This document shows positions 9,307 through 19,777 of a stretch of DNA of 34,716 nt, piece after piece. Source of the stretch: Dietzia cinnamea NBRC 102147 (GTDB taxonomy: Bacteria > Actinomycetota > Actinomycetes > Mycobacteriales > Mycobacteriaceae); the NCBI RefSeq assembly GCF_001571065.1, contig NZ_BCSW01000031.1:1-34716 (forward strand), given 5' to 3'. Every line of letters starts with the position of its first letter. Position 1 is the stretch's first letter. Below the pieces are notes generated by a model, which did not search any database, was not told where the DNA came from, and saw only the letters and a list, made by a program, of their open reading frames with translations. The position numbers and the translations under genes are program-made.

Positions 9307-9356
9307 GCGCACAGTCCATCACGGCCGAGGCGCCCTCACAGGTCGAACGCCTGCAC

Positions 9357-9420
9357 GTGAGTACACCGTGACGGGACCGTCACCGCGAATAGCACAGGGG
9401 AAACAGCCCGTTCCTACGGT
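9357..9420 (+). promoter_or_regulatory. narK operator and promoter (three 11-bp-spaced half-sites plus -10)
   Basis: Half-sites GTGAG (9357-9361), GTGAC (9368-9372) and GTCAC (9379-9383) are each separated by six bases; the second spacer is GGGACC. The last two form a 7-bp inverted repeat around GA. After 27 nt comes TTCCTACGGT, whose TACGGT (9415-9420) fits an actinobacterial -10. There is no good -35, as expected of an activator-dependent promoter. The same layout precedes nirB. GlnR boxes also use GTNAC-type half-sites at 11-bp spacing, so NnaR and/or GlnR are the likely binders. Confidence 0.65.
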
Positions 9421-9430
9421 TGCCGTCACG

Positions 9431-9451
9431 GGGCTCCGAACGAGGGAGCCC
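9431..9451 (+). other. narK leader hairpin
   Basis: GGGCTCC (9431-9437) pairs with GGAGCCC (9445-9451) around a 7-nt loop in the predicted 5' UTR, ending 6 nt before the ribosome site GGGGAGGGG (9458-9466). It may only space the ribosome site, or it may modulate translation. The loop is not the hexaloop expected of ANTAR targets. Confidence 0.35.
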
Positions 9452-9474
9452 ACCGGCGGGGAGGGGCCACGCAC

Positions 9475-10941
9475 ATGACGCGCTCACGCACGATCGAGAA
9501 CTGGGATCCGGAGGACCGGCACCAGTGGGAGTCCGGCGGTCGCCGCATCGCCGTGCGCAACCTGTACTGGTCGGTGTTCGCCGAGCACGTGGGGTTCTCG
9601 GTGTGGACCCTCTTCGCGGTGATGGTGCTGTTCATGCCGGAGGACGTCTATGGACTCGACGCCCCGGACAAGTTCCTCGTCTCCGCGGTCGTGACCCTCA
9701 CCGGCGCGTTCCTGCGCATCCCCTACACGCTGGCCACGGCCACGTTCGGCGGTCGCAACTGGACGATGTTCTCCGCGTTCGTCCTGCTCATCCCGGCGGG
9801 CGCGATGCTATGGATCATGGCCAACCCGGGCCAGCCGCTGTGGCTGTACCTGGTGGTAGGCGCGCTCGCCGGCCTGGGCGGGGCCAACTTCGCCTCCTCC
9901 ATGACCAACATCAACGCCTTCTTCCCGCAGCGGATGAAGGGCTGGGCCCTGGGCCTCAACGCGGGCGGCGGCAACCTCGGTGTGGCCACCATTCAGGTGG
10001 TGGGCCTACTGGTGATCGCCGCCGCGGGTAACCGCTCGCCGCACTGGGTGATCGCGGTCTACCTCGTGCTGCTGGTCGTGGCCGGGATCGGGGCCGCGCT
10101 GAAGATGGACAACCTCGGCCACCAGACCGTCGACGTGGCGAGCATGCGCGACGTGGCCACCGACCGCGACGGCTGGGTCCTGTCGCTGCTCTACATCGGT
10201 ACCTTCGGCTCGTTCATCGGCTTCAGCTTCGCGTTCGGCCAGATGCTCACCATGACGTTCACCGGCAACGGGCAGTCACCGGCCGACGCCGCGCTCCACG
10301 CCGCACAGATCACGTTCCTCGGCCCGCTGCTCGGTTCGCTGACCCGCATGCTCGGCGGGCGCCTGGCCGACCGGTTCGGCGGTGCGCGCGTGACGCTGGT
10401 GACGTTCCTCGGAATGGCGGCCACGACGGTCGCGCTGATCGTCACCTCGAGCATGCAGGCCTCGAACGGCGGCAGGCTCTCCGGCGGCGCGCTCGTCCTG
10501 TTCTTCGCGGCGTTCCTCACCCTGTTCGCGCTCACGGGGATGGGCAACGCGTCCGTCTACAAGATGATCCCCACCGTCTACGAGGCCCGCAGCAGGGGCC
10601 TGGACCTGCCGGAGGCGGCGCGGGCGGCGTGGTCGCGGGCCCACTCGGGGGCGTTGATCGGAGTGGCCGGCGCCGTCGGGGCCTTCGGCGGCTTCCTCAT
10701 CAACATGACCCTGCGCAGCTCATACCAGTCATCGGGATCGGCGACGGCGGCGTTCGTGGTGTTCACCGTCTTCTACGTGGTGGCGGCCGTGATCACCCGG
10801 GCCGTGTACCTGCGCCGCCCGGCCGCCGCGCCCGCGCCGGTGGCCACCGGGACGTCGCCTGTCGGGGCGGCCGGGTCGTCGCGGGTTGGCACGGCCGGCG
10901 CCGCGCCGGGTGGGGCTGAGCCGGTGCCCGCCGCGCGCTGA
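9475..10941 (+). CDS. narK: Nitrate/nitrite transporter, NarK family
   Basis: Major-facilitator protein of the nitrate/nitrite porter family, 488 residues with about 12 membrane segments. Both family signatures are seen: AGGGNLGVATIQ in the first half and GMGNASVYKMIP in the second. The MFS loop motif GGRLADRFGG is also present. A cytoplasmic N-terminus of about 30 residues precedes helix 1, and an Ala/Gly/Pro-rich tail of about 40 residues ends the protein. The ATG at 9475 has GGGGAGGGG 8 nt upstream. It is the first gene of narK-nasA-nasB-nnaR, so it most likely imports nitrate (or exports nitrite) for assimilation. Confidence 0.95.
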   Translation: MTRSRTIENWDPEDRHQWESGGRRIAVRNLYWSVFAEHVGFSVWTLFAVMVLFMPEDVYGLDAPDKFLVSAVVTLTGAFLRIPYTLATATFGGRNWTMFSAFVLLIPAGAMLWIMANPGQPLWLYLVVGALAGLGGANFASSMTNINAFFPQRMKGWALGLNAGGGNLGVATIQVVGLLVIAAAGNRSPHWVIAVYLVLLVVAGIGAALKMDNLGHQTVDVASMRDVATDRDGWVLSLLYIGTFGSFIGFSFAFGQMLTMTFTGNGQSPADAALHAAQITFLGPLLGSLTRMLGGRLADRFGGARVTLVTFLGMAATTVALIVTSSMQASNGGRLSGGALVLFFAAFLTLFALTGMGNASVYKMIPTVYEARSRGLDLPEAARAAWSRAHSGALIGVAGAVGAFGGFLINMTLRSSYQSSGSATAAFVVFTVFYVVAAVITRAVYLRRPAAAPAPVATGTSPVGAAGSSRVGTAGAAPGGAEPVPAAR

Positions 10942-10942
10942 T

Positions 10943-10980
10943 CGCCGCGCGTGTGTCCCCGCCCCCGCCGGGGCGCGGCG
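10943..10980 (+). terminator. Hairpin between narK and nasA (attenuating?)
   Basis: CGCCGCGC (10943-10950) pairs with GCGCGGCG (10973-10980); inner C and G runs can extend the stem. It sits 2 nt after the narK stop. I see no convincing promoter before nasA, so this may be a partial terminator or an mRNA-stabilising stem that lowers expression of the reductase genes relative to narK. Confidence 0.5.
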
Positions 10981-11106
10981 AGTGGTCACAAGTGCCGGTC
11001 TGCGCGTGTGCCGACCTGGGACGACGTGGTCGGGTTCGACCACTCGCCGGCAGGCCGCGGGGGCGGGGCGACGAGAAACGACGAGGACGACGACGAGGAG
11101 AACACC

Positions 11107-13247
<2,141 letters not shown>

Positions 13248-13251
<4 letters not shown>

Positions 13252-14792
13252 GCGCGGAGGTGGGGCCGGGACGCACGGTGCCGGGCACGCCGCCCGGTCC
13301 GACGGGGCCGCAGGTGCGGCGCCACGTGGTGATCGTCGGCGCGGGGATGGCCGCCGCGCGCCTCGCCGAGGAACTGCGCGCGGGCGAGCCCGACCCGACG
13401 CGCCTGTCGATCACCGTGATCGGCGCCGAGGCGGAGGAGCCGTACAACCGCATCATGCTCTCCCACGCCGCCGCGGCGTCCGGGGCTGCCGGGGCGTCCG
13501 GGGCTGCCGGTGGCGCGACCCCGGTCGCGCGGCTCAAGCCCGCCGGGTGGTGGGAACGCCACCACATCGCCCTGCACACCTCCACACATGTCACGGCGAT
13601 CGACCGCGTCACGTGCGAGGTCGAGCTCGCGGGCGGTGCGAGGACCGGCTACGACCACCTCGTCCTGGCCACCGGCGCCGCGCCCCGCATCCCGCCCGTC
13701 GACGGCATCCGCTCATCGGACGGCGGTCTCGCGCCCGGTGTGTTCACTCTCCGGGACGCCGCGGGTCAGAGAAAGCTGACTGCCCATCTCGCCGCCCACC
13801 CGGGGCCCGTCGCGATCGTCGGTGCGGGCTTCATCGGCCTCGAGGTCGCCTGCGCACTGGCCGCGGCCGGGCACGACGTCGTCGTCGTCCACCCCCGCGC
13901 CTGGCCCATGAACGGCTGCCTCGACGCCGGCGCCGGCGCCGTCCTGGTCCGTGCCCTCGCCGCGCTCGGCGTGCGGACGGTGACCGGCGCGCGCGCCACG
14001 AGCTGGGACGGGTCGACGTTACGACTCGACGACGGCGAGGTGCACTGCCGCACCGTCGTCCTCACCGCCGGGTCCGCGCCCCGGACGGACCTCGCGCGCG
14101 ACGCCGGCCTGGAGGTGGGCCACGGCGTGGTCGTCGACGACGAGCTCGCGACCAGCGATCCCGCCATCAGCGCAATCGGCGACTGCGCCCAGCACCGGGG
14201 CGTCGTCAGCGGCCTGGTGGCCCCGGCGTGGGACCAGGCCGTCGTGCTGGCCGCGCGGCTCGCCGGCACCGATCCGCACGCCCGGTACGTCGGCGGTACG
14301 CAGGTCACCAGACTCAAGGCGCACGGGCTCGACGTGGTCGCGCTGGGCGAGCTCGCGGAGGACGTGTACGGCTCGGCGGGCGGCGACGACGAGCCCACCG
14401 AGGTCACGACGCTGAGCGAACCCGCGCGCGGCCGCTACGCCCGCGTCGACGTGGTGGCCGGCCGCGTGGTGGGAGCCGCACTGATCGGCCACCCGGAACC
14501 GGTCGGCACTCTCACACAGTTGTACGAGAACGCCCTACCCGTGCCGGACGACGTCGTGTCGGTGATCCTGGGGCGCGCGGAGGCGGTGGCCGCGCAGACG
14601 CCGTCCACCATGCCCGCCGCCGCGGTGGTGTGCCGGTGCAACGGCGTCAGCAAGGGCGACCTCGTCGCGGCATGGACCGACGGCGCCCGTGACCGCGACG
14701 CGCTGGCCGAGAGCACCCGCGCCGGGACGGGCTGCGGCGGGTGTTCGGCCGCGGTCGAGGGGATCTGCGGATGGCTCGCGGCGGCCGGGTAG
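13248..14792 (+). CDS. nasB: FAD-dependent nitrate reductase electron-transfer subunit with BFD-like [2Fe-2S] domain
   Basis: 514-residue flavoprotein that should pass electrons from NAD(P)H to NasA. The first Rossmann motif is VIVGAGMAAARLAEE and the second VAIVGAGFIGLEVACAL; the FAD-proximal motif is SAIGDCAQ. The C-terminal BFD-like domain carries C462-X-C464 (VCRCNGVS) and C496-X2-C499 (GCGGC), ligands for a [2Fe-2S] cluster. The fold equals the N-terminal half of NirB without the sirohaem domains. It starts at GTG 13248, overlapping the nasA stop. An Ala/Ser/Gly loop after MLSHAAA is encoded by an 18-bp tandem duplication. Confidence 0.85.
13476..13510 (+). repeat. 18-bp in-frame tandem duplication in nasB
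   Basis: Two copies, 13476-13493 and 13494-13510 (17 of 18 bases visible in the second before divergence), encode ASGAAG twice. Other NasB/NirB-like proteins I recall have an ordinary loop here between the EPYNRI motif and the KPAGWW segment. It is in frame and probably neutral. Confidence 0.85.
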
Positions 14793-14834
14793 GGCGCGGC
14801 GGAGAACTCCCCGGATCAGAAGAGGAGAACTGGG

Positions 14835-16037
14835 ATGAACCCAGCGACCGGCGGGCGGCGAAACACCCCGGCAACAGAGATCGGCCATGATGAGGGAGTG
14901 ACCGATTCCGACGTGACCTCCGCCGGCCCCGATCTCCCGCTCCTCGGGCGTACGGTCGCCGTCACCGCCGCCCGGCGTGCCTCTGAGCAGCGCACCCTGC
15001 TCGAGCGTCGCGGCGCGACCGTCCTGCACGCGCCGGCCATGCACATGATTCCCATCGCCGAGGACACCGTGGTGCGTGAGGCCACCGAGCGACTGCTGGC
15101 CGCGCCCGCCGACCTCATGGTGCTCACCACCGCCGCCGGGGTGCGTTGGTGGTTGCAGGTGTGCGAGGAGTGGGGCCTGGCCGGGGAACTGCTCGAGCTG
15201 ATGGCACGGATCCCGCTGTACTCGCGCGGTCCCAAGACGACCGGGGCGATCCGGGCCGCCGGCCTGCGTGAGCACGCCTCCGCCGTCAGCGAGGCCAGCC
15301 CGGAGCTGCTGGAGATGCTGCTCGAGCGGGGAGTCGCGGGTCTGACGATCGGCGTGCAGGTGCAGGGTGCGGGTTCCGGCTGGAACCCCATGGCCCCCCT
15401 GCTCGACGGCCTGCGGGACGCGGGCGCCGACGTGATCGAGGTGCCCGTCTACCGCTGGGAGCTACCCGAGGATCTCGCGGCGCTCGACGAGCTGGTCACG
15501 ACAATCGCCCGTCACGGAGTCGACGGCGTGACGTTCACCGCGGCGCCGGCGGTCGTGGCCGTGCTCGCGCGGGCGGACGCGCTCGGGCTGTTCGACGACC
15601 TGCTCGACGCGCTGCGCGGCCCGGTCGCCGCCCTGTGCGTGGGCCAGGTGACCGCGGCCCCGCTGGCCGACCTGGACGTGCCGTTCACCTGCCCTGATCG
15701 GATGCGCCTGGGTTCGCTCATGCGGCACACCACCGACGAGCTCGCCGCCCGGACGGCGCCGATCGGCGTGGCCGGGCACGAGCTGACCGTGTGCGCGGCG
15801 GCGGTGCTGGTCGACGGCCGACCGGTCGAGGTGACGCCGGCCCAGCTCGCGCTGGTGCGCGCGCTCGCGCGTCGGCCGGGGGCGTGCGTGAGCCGGGACG
15901 AGCTTCTCGCGGCTCTGCCCGGAGACGGCACGGACCCGCACGCGGTGGAGACCGCGATGGGTCGACTCCGCCGGGCGCTCGGTGTGCCGGACCTGGTGAC
16001 GACCGTCGTCAAGCGCGGTTACCGACTCACCATCTGA
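14835..16037 (+). CDS. nnaR: NnaR-type regulator: uroporphyrinogen-III synthase-like domain plus winged-helix DNA-binding domain
   Basis: 400 residues in two parts. About 30-285 is HemD-like (LLGRTVAVTAARRASEQ at its start). About 305-400 is a response-regulator-type winged helix ending in VVKRGYRLTI. This architecture is that of the nitrate assimilation regulator NnaR of Streptomyces and mycobacteria (M. tuberculosis Rv0260c type), which acts with GlnR on nitrate and nitrite genes. Position after nasB and facing nirBD supports that role. AGGAG at 14823-14827 lies 7 nt before ATG 14835, so I chose it; GTG 14898 gives a form starting at the conserved part. Whether the HemD part makes uroporphyrinogen III or only senses a tetrapyrrole is unknown. 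Confidence 0.87.
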   Translation: MNPATGGRRNTPATEIGHDEGVTDSDVTSAGPDLPLLGRTVAVTAARRASEQRTLLERRGATVLHAPAMHMIPIAEDTVVREATERLLAAPADLMVLTTAAGVRWWLQVCEEWGLAGELLELMARIPLYSRGPKTTGAIRAAGLREHASAVSEASPELLEMLLERGVAGLTIGVQVQGAGSGWNPMAPLLDGLRDAGADVIEVPVYRWELPEDLAALDELVTTIARHGVDGVTFTAAPAVVAVLARADALGLFDDLLDALRGPVAALCVGQVTAAPLADLDVPFTCPDRMRLGSLMRHTTDELAARTAPIGVAGHELTVCAAAVLVDGRPVEVTPAQLALVRALARRPGACVSRDELLAALPGDGTDPHAVETAMGRLRRALGVPDLVTTVVKRGYRLTI

Positions 16038-16097
16038 GCGAACGCGGCGGGCGGGCCCGGGCGAGGCGGCGGCGCGCGGGCGGCCGGCAGCGGGGGT

Positions 16098-16163
16098 GGT
16101 TTGGCTCGGCGGGCGGCCTTCGGCGGGCGCGGTTTGGCTCGGCGGGCGGCCTTCGGCGGGCGC
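16098..16163. repeat. Perfect 33-bp tandem duplication
   Basis: 16098-16130 and 16131-16163 are identical, each beginning GGTTTGGCTCGGCGGG. It lies in the nnaR-nirD spacer, has no coding role, and the identity suggests a recent duplication. Confidence 0.9.
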
Positions 16164-16286
16164 GCGTGGGCGATCTCGCAGCGTGAGTCCCGCCAGGTGT
16201 GCTGGCTCTTCGGCTTGTGATGGCTGAATGGTCCATCCGGCCAGCGCACCCGGGCTGTGTTCGAGCATTCCGGCAGCGTAAGCCGA

Positions 16287-16322
16287 AGAGGCAGCGCGAC
16301 CGGGAGGGGTCGCGCTGCCTCT
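16287..16322. terminator. Strong bidirectional terminator between nnaR and nirD
   Basis: A perfect 15-bp stem (16287-16301 with 16308-16322) closes a 6-nt GGGAGG loop. It is centred between the convergent nnaR and nirBD units and should end both transcripts. Confidence 0.85.
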
Positions 16323-16334
16323 GTGTCGGGTGCC

Positions 16335-16418
16335 GGGCGATCCCGCAGCGCATCCGCTGGGTTGCGGGCTTCCGGCGGGCGATCCCGCAGCGCATCCGCT
16401 GGGTTGCGGGCCTCCGGC
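16335..16418. repeat. 42-bp tandem duplication with internal dyad
   Basis: 16335-16376 and 16377-16418 differ at one base (T/C at 16370/16412). Each unit contains CAGCG-CATC-CGCTG flanked by CCCG and CGGG, an imperfect stem-loop, so the pair resembles small palindromic intergenic elements. It lies on the nirD 3' side of the terminator. Confidence 0.88.
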
Positions 16419-16462
16419 GAGCAGGCGCGCAGCGGTGGCGCAGGCGTGCCCCCTGCCGGTGC

Positions 16463-16882
16463 CTACGCAGCGGTGGCGCGGGTGTGGCGAACCGCGGGCT
16501 CGGTCGCCACGTAGACCGTGCCGTCGCCGGCGACCCGGGCGGGGAACACCGAGATCCCGCGGGACGGGTCGTCGAGACCGCGACCGTCCTCGAGCGCGTA
16601 CGCCTGCTTGCCGATGGGCGAGATCACGGCGGGGACGCCGCCGCGGTCGCCCACCAGCCCGCGGCTCATCACGGCCGCCCGGGCGACGGGATCGATGTTG
16701 CAGACGGCGTGCACCTCGCCGTCGTCGAGCGTGTACACCGCCACCTGCCGCCCGTCTGGCAGCAGGGCGGCGACCCCGCGCCCGACGATGAGGCGGTCGA
16801 CAGGGCAGACGGCGACCTCGGCGGCGGCTGCCGCGGTGGAAGCGGCGCCGGTACGGGCGGGGCGGGACAGGGTGGCGGTCAT
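16463..16882 (-). CDS. nirD: Nitrite reductase (NAD(P)H) small subunit NirD
   Basis: 139-residue Rieske-fold small subunit of the assimilatory nitrite reductase. An Ala-rich N-terminus of about 20 residues precedes the conserved part (VCPVDRLIVGRGVAALL). GEVHAVCNIDPVARAAVMSRGLVGD fills the region that in true Rieske proteins carries the Cys-X-His ligands. Those ligand pairs are absent, as in most NirD proteins, so it is structural and not a redox centre. The ATG at 16882 has GAGGAG 7 nt upstream. The nirB stop lies 122 nt upstream; that spacer holds a 14-bp-period repeat (16921-16946) but no evident promoter, so it is probably co-transcribed with nirB. Confidence 0.92.
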   Translation of the reverse strand: MTATLSRPARTGAASTAAAAAEVAVCPVDRLIVGRGVAALLPDGRQVAVYTLDDGEVHAVCNIDPVARAAVMSRGLVGDRGGVPAVISPIGKQAYALEDGRGLDDPSRGISVFPARVAGDGTVYVATEPAVRHTRATAA

Positions 16883-16920
16883 GGTGAACTCCTCGGATTG
16901 AAGGCGGGGCAGGTGAAGCC

Positions 16921-16946
16921 GGGGCGGTTGTGAAGGGGCGGTTGTG
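16921..16946. repeat. Short direct repeat in the nirB-nirD spacer
   Basis: GGGGCGGTTGTG occurs at 16921-16932 and 16935-16946 (14-bp period), about 40-60 nt upstream of the nirD start on the opposite strand. It resembles the other GC-rich slippage repeats in this block. Confidence 0.7.
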
Positions 16947-17004
16947 GGAGGGCGGATATCGGGTCGACGATGGGGACTGGGCCCGGCGCGTCGGGCGCGC
17001 GAGC

Positions 17005-19608
17005 TCAGCTGCGGACGGGCATGGCGGGGGAGCCGAGCAGGACGGGCACCTTGCGGCCGTCGCGCTGCTCGAACCGGACGGTGGGGTCCGGCGCCTCGGG
17101 GGCGTTGACGAACGAGACGAACCGGGCGAGCTTGTCGGGATCGTCGAGTACGGCCGCCCACTCGTCCACGTAGCCGGCGACGTGCGCCTCCATCCGGCCC
17201 TCGAGCTCGGCGGCCAGGCCGAGGGAGTCGTCGCACACCACCTCGCGCAGGTGGTCGAGCCCGCCCTCGAGCGCCTCGAGCCACGGCGCCATGCGCTGCA
17301 GCCGCTCGGCCGTGCGGACGTAGAACATCACGGTGCGGTCGATGTATCGGATGAGCTGGTCGTCGGTGAGGTCGCCGGCCAGCAGCTGGGCGTGCCGCGG
17401 GGTCGCGCCGCCGTTGCCCCCCACGTAGAGGTTCCAACCGTTCTCGGTGGCGATCACGCCGACGTCCTTGCCGCGGGCCTCCGCGCACTCGCGCGCACAC
17501 CCGGAGACGGCCATCTTGATCTTGTGCGGCGCTCGCAGTCCGCGGTAGCGGGTCTCCAGCAGCACCGCCATCGCGACCGAGTCCTGCTGCCCGTACCGGC
17601 ACCACGACGTGCCCACGCAGCTCTTGACCGTGCGCAGCGACTTGCCGTACGCGTGCCCGGACTCCATGCCCGCCTCCACCAGCCGCCGCCAGATGGCGGG
17701 GAGTTCCTCGACGCGCGCGCCGAACAGGTCGATGCGCTGGCCGCCGGTGACCTTGACGTACAGGTCGTGGTCGCGGGCGATCTCGCCGATCACGATGAGC
17801 TGCTCCGCCGTCACCTCGCCGCCGGGCATCCGCGGCACCACCGAGTAGGTGCCGTTCTTCTGGATGTTGGCCAGGAAGTGGTCGTTGGTGTCCTGCAGCG
17901 CCGCCTGCTCGCCGTCGAGGACGTGGTCCGAGCTGGTCGAGGCGAGGATCGACGCGACCGTCGGCTTGCAGATGTCGCAGCCCGTGCCGCGCCCGAAGCG
18001 CCCGATCAGACCGGAGAACGTGCGGATGCCGGTGACGGTGACGATCTCGAAAAGCTCCGAGCGGGACTGGTCGAAGTGCTCGCACAGCGCGGTGGACTGC
18101 TCGACGCCCTCGGCCTCGAGGACCTGACGCATGAGCGGAAGGCACGAGCCGCACGACGTGCCGGCCCGGGTGCACGCCTTGAGGGCGGGCACGTCGCACG
18201 CCCCCTCGCAGATCGCCTCGCGCAGATCGCCCTTGGTGACGGCGTTGCACGAGCAGATCTGCGCGTCGTCGGGAAGTGAGTCCACGCCGACGCCGGAGTC
18301 GGCCGCCGCACCCGGGGTGATGAGGGCCAGGGGAGTGGACGACGGCAAGGTGCGGCCCAGCAGCGGCTTGAGCAACTGGTAGGGGCCGGCGTCGCCGACG
18401 AACACGCCGCCCAGCAGGGTCAGGGCGTCGTCGCTGAGGACGAGTTTGCTGTAGGTGCGGGCGACCGGGTCGTCCACCACCACCTCGAGACAGTCGGGCG
18501 TACGACCGTGGGCGTCGCCGAAGCTGGCCACGTCGACCCCCATGAGCTTGAGCTTGGTGGCGAGGTCGGCCCCGGTGAACTCGGTGCCGGCGTCGCCGGT
18601 GATCTGGCCGGCCGCCACCTCGGCGGAGGTGTATCCGGGCCCGACCAGGCCGTAGCAGGTGCCCTCGATGGCCGCGCACTCGCCGATCGCGTAGACGTGC
18701 GGGTCCGAGGTGCGGCAGGCTCTGTCGGTCAGCACGCCGCCACGCTCGGCCACGGCGATTCCCGCCGCGCGGGCGAGTTCGTCGCGGGGCCGGACACCGA
18801 CGGAGAACACGACGAGGGCCGCGTCGACGACATCCGTCTCGCCGTCGTCGGAGGTCAGGGCGACCCGGAGTCCGGCGTCACCGGACGCCGACCCGGCGCC
18901 ACCCCCGGCGGCGTCCGCGGTGTCACCCCCCGCGTCGTCCGCGCCGCCGGCGGCACTCTCCTCGATGACCGTGTCGGTCACGCTGAGGTGCACGTCGATG
19001 CCGCGGTCGCGGATGAGGTCCCCCAGCAGGGCGCCGCCGCGGCCGTCGACCTGCACGGGCATGAGCCGGTCGTTGCGTTCCACGACGTGCGGGACCAGGC
19101 CGAGCAGGCTCAGCGCGTTGGCGGCCTCGATGCCCAGCAGCCCGCCGCCGATCACCACGCCGTGCGCGCCCGCCCCGGCCCGCTCGGCGGCCGCGCGGAT
19201 CGCGTCGAGGTCGTCGAGCGTGCGGTATACATGGCAGCCGGGCAGGTCGTGGCCGGGGACGGGCGGGACGAACGCGCGCGAACCGGTCGCCAACACCAGC
19301 GTGTCGTAGTCGACGTACTCGCCCGAGTCGAGTTCCACGCGTCGGGCGCCGGTGTCGATCGCGGTGACGAGCCGGCCGGAACGCACGGTGACGCGGGGGT
19401 CGGCGGAGTGCCGCGCATCGTCGAGGTGCAGCGCGTCGCGCTCCCACGCGCCGACGTAGGCGGACAGTCCGACGCGGTCGTAGGCGGGATCGGCTTCCTC
19501 GCCGATCACCGTGACGGCCACGTCGGCGTCGGCGTAGCGCGTGCCGAGGGTGGAGACGAAGCGGTGGGATACCATCCCGTGCCCGACGACGACGATGTGC
19601 TCAGTCAT
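17005..19608 (-). CDS. nirB: Assimilatory nitrite reductase (NAD(P)H) large subunit NirB
   Basis: 867-residue cytoplasmic enzyme reducing nitrite to ammonium with six electrons. Order of domains: FAD and NAD Rossmann domains (IVVVGHGMVSHRF; HGVVIGGGLLGIEAA), a BFD-like [2Fe-2S] domain (ICSCNAVT and GTSCGSC), the ferredoxin-like half (NGTYSVVPRMPGG), and the sirohaem/[4Fe-4S] centre with C664-X5-C670 and C704-X3-C708. A roughly 25-residue Ala/Gly/Asp-rich insertion sits in the FAD/NAD part after TDTVIEES. The ATG at 19608 has a near-perfect AAGGAGGT (19615-19622) 6 nt upstream. It is first in nirB-nirD, convergent with nnaR, and its promoter carries the same operator as narK. Confidence 0.96.
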   Translation of the reverse strand: MTEHIVVVGHGMVSHRFVSTLGTRYADADVAVTVIGEEADPAYDRVGLSAYVGAWERDALHLDDARHSADPRVTVRSGRLVTAIDTGARRVELDSGEYVDYDTLVLATGSRAFVPPVPGHDLPGCHVYRTLDDLDAIRAAAERAGAGAHGVVIGGGLLGIEAANALSLLGLVPHVVERNDRLMPVQVDGRGGALLGDLIRDRGIDVHLSVTDTVIEESAAGGADDAGGDTADAAGGGAGSASGDAGLRVALTSDDGETDVVDAALVVFSVGVRPRDELARAAGIAVAERGGVLTDRACRTSDPHVYAIGECAAIEGTCYGLVGPGYTSAEVAAGQITGDAGTEFTGADLATKLKLMGVDVASFGDAHGRTPDCLEVVVDDPVARTYSKLVLSDDALTLLGGVFVGDAGPYQLLKPLLGRTLPSSTPLALITPGAAADSGVGVDSLPDDAQICSCNAVTKGDLREAICEGACDVPALKACTRAGTSCGSCLPLMRQVLEAEGVEQSTALCEHFDQSRSELFEIVTVTGIRTFSGLIGRFGRGTGCDICKPTVASILASTSSDHVLDGEQAALQDTNDHFLANIQKNGTYSVVPRMPGGEVTAEQLIVIGEIARDHDLYVKVTGGQRIDLFGARVEELPAIWRRLVEAGMESGHAYGKSLRTVKSCVGTSWCRYGQQDSVAMAVLLETRYRGLRAPHKIKMAVSGCARECAEARGKDVGVIATENGWNLYVGGNGGATPRHAQLLAGDLTDDQLIRYIDRTVMFYVRTAERLQRMAPWLEALEGGLDHLREVVCDDSLGLAAELEGRMEAHVAGYVDEWAAVLDDPDKLARFVSFVNAPEAPDPTVRFEQRDGRKVPVLLGSPAMPVRS

Positions 19609-19640
19609 TCCTGGACCTCCTTGGCGTGCCTGTGGGGGAC

Positions 19641-19704
19641 AGCCTAGGAAGGCGGTGTTGCGGTGCTGTGGCGTCGGATCACGGTCCCGTGACGCTTACT
19701 TCAC
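19641..19704 (-). promoter_or_regulatory. nirB operator and promoter, matching that of narK
   Basis: Read on the minus strand: GTGAA (19704-19700), six bases, GTCAC (19693-19689), GGGACC, GTGAT (19682-19678), then 27 nt, then TTCCTAGGCT with the -10 TAGGCT at 19646-19641. Spacing is identical to the narK promoter, base for base, and GGGACC and TTCCTA are shared. No -35 is seen. Confidence 0.65.
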
Positions 19705-19777
19705 ATCGGTCCGGGGGCCGGGTGAGGGACCGGTCCGCGGGCGTGTGGCGGCGGGATGCGGGCGCCGGAGCGGCGGC

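Follow-up and report, generated by a model that had tools for sequence, protein, structure and literature searches.

The nitrate switch formed by NnaR and GlnR is already known, and Amin et al. 2012 are said to have placed nirB, narK and nasA of Streptomyces coelicolor under both regulators. In that organism GlnR activates nnaR, and NnaR and GlnR bind nirB cooperatively (cited via PMC10704036). In Mycobacterium smegmatis, NnaR acts in cooperation with GlnR and binds the promoters of nirB and narK, and a palindrome ctCAC...GTGag was reported for it by Antczak et al. (PMC6277429); the palindrome is also used in Mycobacterium abscessus, in a search whose range includes N17 (PMC11162112). For GlnR the motif in M. 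smegmatis is Gn2AC-n6-GnAACA (PMC3662644), and its chromatin immunoprecipitation (ChIP) peaks have been mapped upstream of nirB, nnaR and narK3 both in that species (PMC3662644) and in Mycobacterium tuberculosis (PMC4950008). In this report we focus on a 34,716-nucleotide contig of Dietzia cinnamea NBRC 102147 (NZ_BCSW01000031.1, assembly GCF_001571065.1), hereafter the window, in which narK and nirB are, judging by their sequence, very probably driven by two copies of one composite promoter consisting of an NnaR-type palindrome and two GlnR-type boxes. What is new is Dietzia as a genus with this switch, and the finer anatomy of the promoters.

Anatomy of the narK and nirB promoters

Direct reading of both promoters (Table 1) agrees with an earlier note on this DNA, which had described three GTSA(N) half-sites at 11-bp steps and at equal distance from a TANNNT -10 element: in both, half-site 3 is followed by 27 nt and then by TTCCTA, which runs into the -10 element. 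The composite NnaR/GlnR site proposed there stands in kind, being conserved and in register with the -10 element, but its anatomy was incomplete. The operator extends beyond the three half-sites: the first of them forms the right arm of a longer, NnaR-type palindrome, and the left arm of this palindrome, an inverted CTCAC 22 bp upstream of the first GTGA at both genes, had been overlooked, together with a GlnR-type half-site GMAACA that lies within the 27-nt gap, 9 bp before the -10 element, at both promoters. Likewise, a single footprint of activator centred 45 bp upstream of the -10 element does not fit sites that span about -92 to -22. When the 86-bp blocks of narK and nirB are compared, they are identical at 24/29 core positions and at 23/57 other positions. 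Two further features shared by the promoters were ruled out as conserved elements: the common second spacer GGGACC, which occurs in 5/12 narK and 5/12 nirB sites of the genus, and the letters TTCC before the -10 element (TTCCTA in 5/12 narK and 9/12 nirB sites), whereas TANNNT itself is present in 24/24.

Table 1. Features of the narK, nasA, nnaR and nirB region, in positions of the window (half-site starts or ranges in brackets)
Feature	Position	Strand	Description and support
NnaR-type palindrome of narK	9335..9361	+	CTCAC (9335-9339)-N17-GTGAG (9357-9361); published motif ctCAC[a/c]-N16-[t/g]GTGag, PMC6277429
narK upstream box, likeliest GlnR box (a1-b1)	9368..9383	+	GTGAC (9368)-n6-GTCAC (9379); Streptomyces venezuelae GTnAC-n6-GTnAC, quoted in PMC10704036
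narK promoter-proximal GlnR-type box	9389..9405	+	ATAGC-n6-GAAACA; b-site GAAACA (9400-9405) well conserved, a-site weak; motif Gn2AC-n6-GnAACA
narK predicted -10 element	9415..9420	+	TACGGT; predicted start ~9427; TANNNT in 12/12 genus narK sites
narK	9475..10941	+	nitrate/nitrite transporter, 488 aa; TIGR00886 251.7 bits (below cut-off 311.7); Pfam MFS_1
nasA	10951..13251	+	nasA-type assimilatory nitrate reductase open reading frame, 9 bp after narK; NF047855 691.8 bits, below cut-off
GlnR-type promoter of nnaR	14860..14891	+	GAAAC-n6-GCAACA (14860-14876), 9 nt, CATGAT (14886-14891); GTG 6 nt later (14898)
nnaR	14898..16037	+	HemD domain (PF02602, 100.7 bits) and Trans_reg_C DNA-binding domain (PF00486, 49.3 bits); likely start GTG 14898; longest open reading frame 14835-16037
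nirD domain, downstream of nirB	open reading frame 16463-18679		TIGR02378 75.4 bits
nirB	17005..19608	-	nitrite reductase large subunit, 867 aa; TIGR02374 1033.4 bits, above cut-off
nirB predicted -10 element	19641..19646	-	TAGGCT (19646); predicted start ~19634; TANNNT in 12/12 genus nirB sites
nirB promoter-proximal GlnR box	19656..19672	-	GCCAC (19672)-n6-GCAACA (19661); exact match to Gn2AC-n6-GnAACA, 9 bp from -10
nirB upstream box, likeliest GlnR box	19678..19693	-	GTCAC (19693)-n6-GTGAT (19682); half-sites 2 and 3
NnaR-type palindrome of nirB	19700..19726	-	CTCAC (19726-19722)-N17-GTGAA (19704-19700)

Both palindromes agree with the NnaR form CTCAC[A/C]...GTGAG, whose arms are spaced by about 22-23 bp, since CTCAC-N17-GTGA is exact in each; the right arm of nirB reads GTGAA instead of GTGAG. 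They stand before nitrate/nitrite assimilation genes, narK and nirB in the window, and the genome encodes NnaR, a HemD domain fused to an OmpR-type DNA-binding domain (PF02602 and PF00486), as well as GlnR (L180; PF21695, 126.8 bits). Compared with narK and nirB of M. smegmatis as described in PMC6277429, the Dietzia promoters have in common the genes, the regulators, ctCAC...GTGag near a GlnR motif at similar spacing and, as predicted, a start downstream of that motif. They differ in the spacing of the arms, which is 22 bp (N17) in the window promoters and in 9/9 Dietzia narK loci, versus 23 bp (N18) as published. This 22-bp spacing is the form treated as uneven in PMC6277429, where that term is applied to a palindrome one base short (msmeg_4008). 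There, NnaR alone shifted neither msmeg_4008 nor msmeg_5360, which has the motif, and NnaR with GlnR affected both.

Chance similarity of two G+C-rich promoters is an explanation that we find scarcely credible, in keeping with the opinion of the earlier note. It could draw on the triplet of half-sites, which by itself is expected about 0.9 times per genome under a composition model using the G+C of the window, but the same model predicts only 4e-4 matches for the four half-sites with CTCAC, and 4e-5 for the triplet followed by a correctly spaced TTCCTA. The 3.6-Mb genome contains two exact matches to CTCAC-N17-GTGA-N7-GTSA-N7-GTSA, precisely the narK and nirB promoters, none at one mismatch, one at two and 17 at three (three in total for a backward-pattern control), so the many random genomic matches that the note had warned of are not seen. 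A loose search of this genome for the triplet, which gave 57 matches mostly at other spacings, was uninformative. Chance is also refuted by the exact spacing in relatives, described below.

Conservation in the genus, family and phylum

The four-site pattern with at most one mismatch is found in 13/23 genomes of the genus and 63/201 of the family, and in a phylum-wide scan, which tells little because it sampled few near relatives, exact matches number five in 4/396 genomes. Within the genus, exact sites precede narK and nirB alike in eleven genomes, narK only in one (G400) and nirB only in one (G396). Downstream genes were assigned for only part of the family-scan matches; where this was done, 33/34 distinct exact sites lie before narK or nirB (the exception is L031), and 8/14 distinct one-mismatch sites precede narK, nirB or a nitrate-reductase-like gene, while 6/14 do not. 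NirB, NnaR and NarK were found in 173/201, 176/201 and 173/201 family genomes, respectively.

The layout was also recovered without the four-site pattern. In 71 narK/nirB upstream regions placed independently of it, hand-picked across genera and with most already-found sites omitted, we measured the distance from GTGA[AG] to GNAAY, demanding 9 nt after GNAAY's sixth base and then YANNNT, and counting the pair nearest 43 bp where one region had several. This distance is 43 bp in 47 regions, 44 bp in six and 45 bp in one, and a spaced pair appears in 0/71 regions on the reverse strand; the conservation in related promoters on which the earlier note had staked its proposal is present in many of them. 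Similarly, among 80 named narK loci, the distance is 43 bp in 61, 44 bp in two and 45 bp in one, with 16 lacking a pair. The distance from GTGAG to the -10 element is 58 bp in most promoters. A weight matrix trained on 40 sites, in which columns 0-48 include positions fixed by the pattern and columns 65-85 are free of them, scored 51/71 regions above the 99% level of shuffled regions, including the low scorers L167, L115 and L160. Left out of its training were L056 (the same site as L041), the nitrate-reductase-like L064 and seven pattern matches without a nitrate gene (L031, L044, L055, L065, L070, L072 and a reverse-strand match in L041/L056).

The outer arm is less strictly placed. In the 47 regions with a 43-bp distance, an exact CTCAC precedes GTGA by 23 bp in 39, by 22 bp in three and by 24 bp in one, and is absent in 4/47. 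The 22-bp form occurs, among the 80 narK loci, in 9/9 from Dietzia, four from Mycolicibacter, one from Mycobacterium (L224) and one from Terrabacter (L251), and exact 22-bp sites also precede narK in eight genomes of genus g5. The 22-bp arms of all 24 genus sites are in part a product of the search, as the pattern demanded N17; the nirB site of G400, found otherwise, has arms 23 bp apart, so the spacing varies within the genus. Spelling the half-sites as GTSA is a local trait, half-site 2 being elsewhere mostly KTSAY and half-site 3 mostly GTCAY, GACAY or GCAAC.

In the related genus g260, the composite precedes a nitrate-reductase-like gene in seven loci (L269-L275), with GMAACA at equal distance and with CAGCAT, a hexamer of the type seen in the Dietzia nnaR promoter, in place of TANNNT. 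The gene was recognised in L269 by NasA/NasC and formate dehydrogenase model matches, all below cut-offs, and in L270-L275 by similar starts. The layout therefore seems to be part of the nitrate regulon rather than of two genes.

Assignment of the half-sites and proposed mechanism

The operator is real, conserved and functional-looking as far as sequence can tell, and in the mechanism that we propose its occupancy by NnaR and GlnR, and the resulting activation, would follow what is known of the orthologues. During nitrogen starvation, GlnR would turn on nnaR from nnaR's own site, and NnaR and GlnR would then jointly activate nirB as well as narK and the nitrate reductase genes that follow it, making the circuit a coherent feed-forward AND gate. 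NnaR would bind the palindrome CTCAC-N17-GTGAR, located at roughly -92 to -66 relative to the predicted start. From there an upstream GlnR-type box (half-sites 2-3) continues at 11-bp steps, and a 5-bp linker leads to the promoter-proximal GlnR-type box GNNNC-n6-GMAACA, ending 9 bp before the TANNNT -10 element. Because of this last distance, and because the -35 columns of the weight matrix (40 sites) show no conserved TTGACA-like element, GlnR probably substitutes for a -35 element, and it would recruit RNA polymerase from that position as a class II activator. In M. tuberculosis, a GlnR ChIP peak upstream of nirB covers 302811-302851, next to a start at 302853, and glnA1 has a GlnR site at -37 (PMC4950008), both in line with the position deduced for the Dietzia proximal box.

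Judged by Gn2AC-n6-GnAACA or GTnAC-n6-GTnAC, the nirB proximal and narK upstream boxes are exact, the nirB upstream box is one base off (GTGAT), and the narK proximal box has ATAGC as its a-site. A loose GlnR motif gave 16 matches at one mismatch in the window versus 14.8 expected, and only two exact matches, each backed by conservation, were used. The proximal module was also searched for on its own: GNNA-n7-GMAACA-n9-TANNNT gave 24 matches in 17 of the 23 genus genomes (backward control, none), which lie before nirB in 14 cases (13 by coordinates, L096 by reading), ureG in four (L077 by TIGR00101, three by similar start), glnA in one (L097 by TIGR00653) and other genes in five. Urease genes are known GlnR targets. 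The same holds for glnA (PMC10704036, PMC3662644). Two of the five other genes look alike, apparently encoding a MauE-type membrane protein according to Pfam (L086 in G409) or a similar start (L080 in G402). The exact proximal pattern precedes ureG in 4/23 genus genomes, and in L077 (G000:C19:5461-5492) the GlnR-type box is followed by TAGCGT 7 nt before ATG, which suggests a leaderless, GlnR-driven urease accessory transcript.

Half-sites 2-3 allow another assignment, namely that they belong to NnaR, which would read the palindrome plus two direct repeats and leave only the proximal box to GlnR. GTSAC resembles GTGAG, half-site 3 of Dietzia nirB is GTGAY, and half-sites 1-3 follow an 11-bp step whereas in the 47 sites whose distance is 43 bp the proximal box follows a 10-bp step, which gives the impression of two joined units. 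NnaR moreover has an OmpR-type domain, and such domains usually read direct repeats. However, in the same 47 sites half-site 2 is mostly KTSAY (TTGAC, GTGAC, TTCAC, GTGAT) and half-site 3 mostly GNMAY, which fit the a- and b-sites of GlnR better than GTGAG, and GlnR-type sites occupy nearly equal positions in the organism's own glnA and amtB. The glnA promoter reads GTAAC-GAAAC-TTGAC-GCAACA at 11-bp steps, the last ending 9 bp before TATCGT; amtB has four GlnR-type sites at 11-bp steps and no clear TANNNT. Such two-box GlnR promoters (gTnAc-n6-GaAAc repeated) have four 5-bp half-sites, and the last site of glnA lies 9 bp before the -10 element as in narK and nirB, which differ by a 10-bp step between boxes, an a-type second half-site that is not GaAAc and an NnaR palindrome upstream. 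We therefore favour an upstream GlnR box on half-sites 2-3, with NnaR there as a possible but somewhat unlikely occupant.

Two other regulators deserve consideration. MtrA might bind the GTSAC-n6-GTSAC box and, for instance, repress by competing with GlnR: the published motifs of the two proteins are almost the same and MtrA binding to mycobacterial nirB is cited (both PMC6277429), and the genome has an MtrA-like response regulator (L183; Response_reg and Trans_reg_C), named from a reading of its sequence. MtrA explains neither the NnaR palindrome nor why the composite is confined to nitrate genes; we consider its occupancy quite improbable, and its control may coexist with that of GlnR. The second is a CRP/GlxR-type regulator reading GTGA...TCAC, for which the consensus is TGTGA-N6-TCACA and for which narK offers GTGACGGGACCGTCAC. 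This candidate was rejected as very improbable: the narK arms are 8 bp apart and not 6 bp as in CRP-type sites, the nirB arms come in reversed order (GTCAC...GTGAT), and the pair is mostly KTSAY...GNMAY across the family.

Several observations weigh against the composite NnaR/GlnR promoter, either its generality or its details. No GTGA[AG]/GNAAY+9+YANNNT pair was found in 17/71 upstream regions, and 20/71 fall below the 99% null in the weight-matrix scan. Within the genus, TGCAC replaces CTCAC in the nirB site of G415, and an outlier, G417 (L132, L164), lacks the composite layout upstream of its NarK and NirB genes. NarK and NirB of G417 are only 62-64% identical to the window proteins and NnaR gives a weak match; its nitrate cluster may have been acquired separately. 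The narK proximal a-site is weak (ATAGC; the commonest form elsewhere is GCAGC), leaving one good half-site only, and the step between the two GlnR boxes of narK and nirB is 10 bp versus 11 bp in the organism's own glnA and amtB. Finally, a resemblance to NnaR arms, and not only to GlnR a-sites, is seen in half-sites 2-3, and half-site 3 is GTGAY in 12/12 genus nirB sites versus the GNMAY usual elsewhere.

nasA, nnaR and the reach of the switch

As the earlier note had stated, a pattern search of the window finds no composite site before nasA. Since the nasA reading frame starts so soon after narK with no composite site ahead, co-transcription of the two is likely, and read-through from narK stands as the predicted route for nasA and its reductase gene. 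In S. coelicolor nasA is reported to be in the NnaR/GlnR regulon (Amin et al. 2012, cited via PMC10704036 and the two NnaR papers, PMC6277429 and PMC11162112), whereas nasA in the window sits behind narK without a site of its own.

The note's extension of this dependence to nnaR probably fails. In Dietzia, nnaR very likely has a GlnR promoter of its own, whose layout is kept in 7/7 Dietzia loci with nnaR, window included (GnAAYA in five and GACACA in two; hexamer CATGAT in four, CAGGAT in two and AAGGAT in one). In 55 other nnaR loci, a GlnR-type box lies within 230 bp upstream in 24, with a hexamer at equal distance too in only 3/55; the reverse-strand control is 0/62. Read-through from narK may add to nnaR expression. 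The longest nnaR reading frame starts at ATG 14835, but its opening 21 codons would run across the conserved GlnR-type promoter; GTG 14898 is the more likely start, and the transcript is probably leaderless. A GlnR-type half-site stands 9 bp before the -10 element in nirB, nnaR, ureG and glnA alike, and this points to a single, class II way of activating them.

A close relative of the HemD half of NnaR, 64-75% identical and without a DNA-binding domain, is encoded in four genomes (L277 in G400, L280 in G396, L278 in G401 and L279 in G411); in L277-L279, the three scanned with Pfam, HEM4 is the sole domain. It adjoins nirB divergently in G400 and G396; in G401 and G411 no narK or nirB was found at the thresholds used. 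It could be a stand-alone enzyme or NnaR minus its DNA-reading head.

A more speculative idea, which we consider unlikely, is that NnaR and GlnR form one continuous, phased nucleoprotein in which the HemD domain reports the supply of siroheme/heme precursor to the nirB promoter. If so, an NnaR pair would sit on the palindrome, and the palindrome's right arm would open a near-11-bp array in which up to four GlnR subunits take part. Most promoters keep 58 bp between GTGAG and the -10 element, while the outer NnaR arm can be spaced at either 22 or 23 bp. NirB, whose promoter the HemD domain would inform, is a siroheme enzyme.

Our analysis extends the NnaR/GlnR nitrate switch to Dietzia and describes a promoter layout that is nearly rigid across much of the family, which gives a base-by-base testable map. 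It also suggests that the one-base-shorter NnaR palindrome, termed uneven in M. smegmatis (PMC6277429), is a normal form elsewhere.

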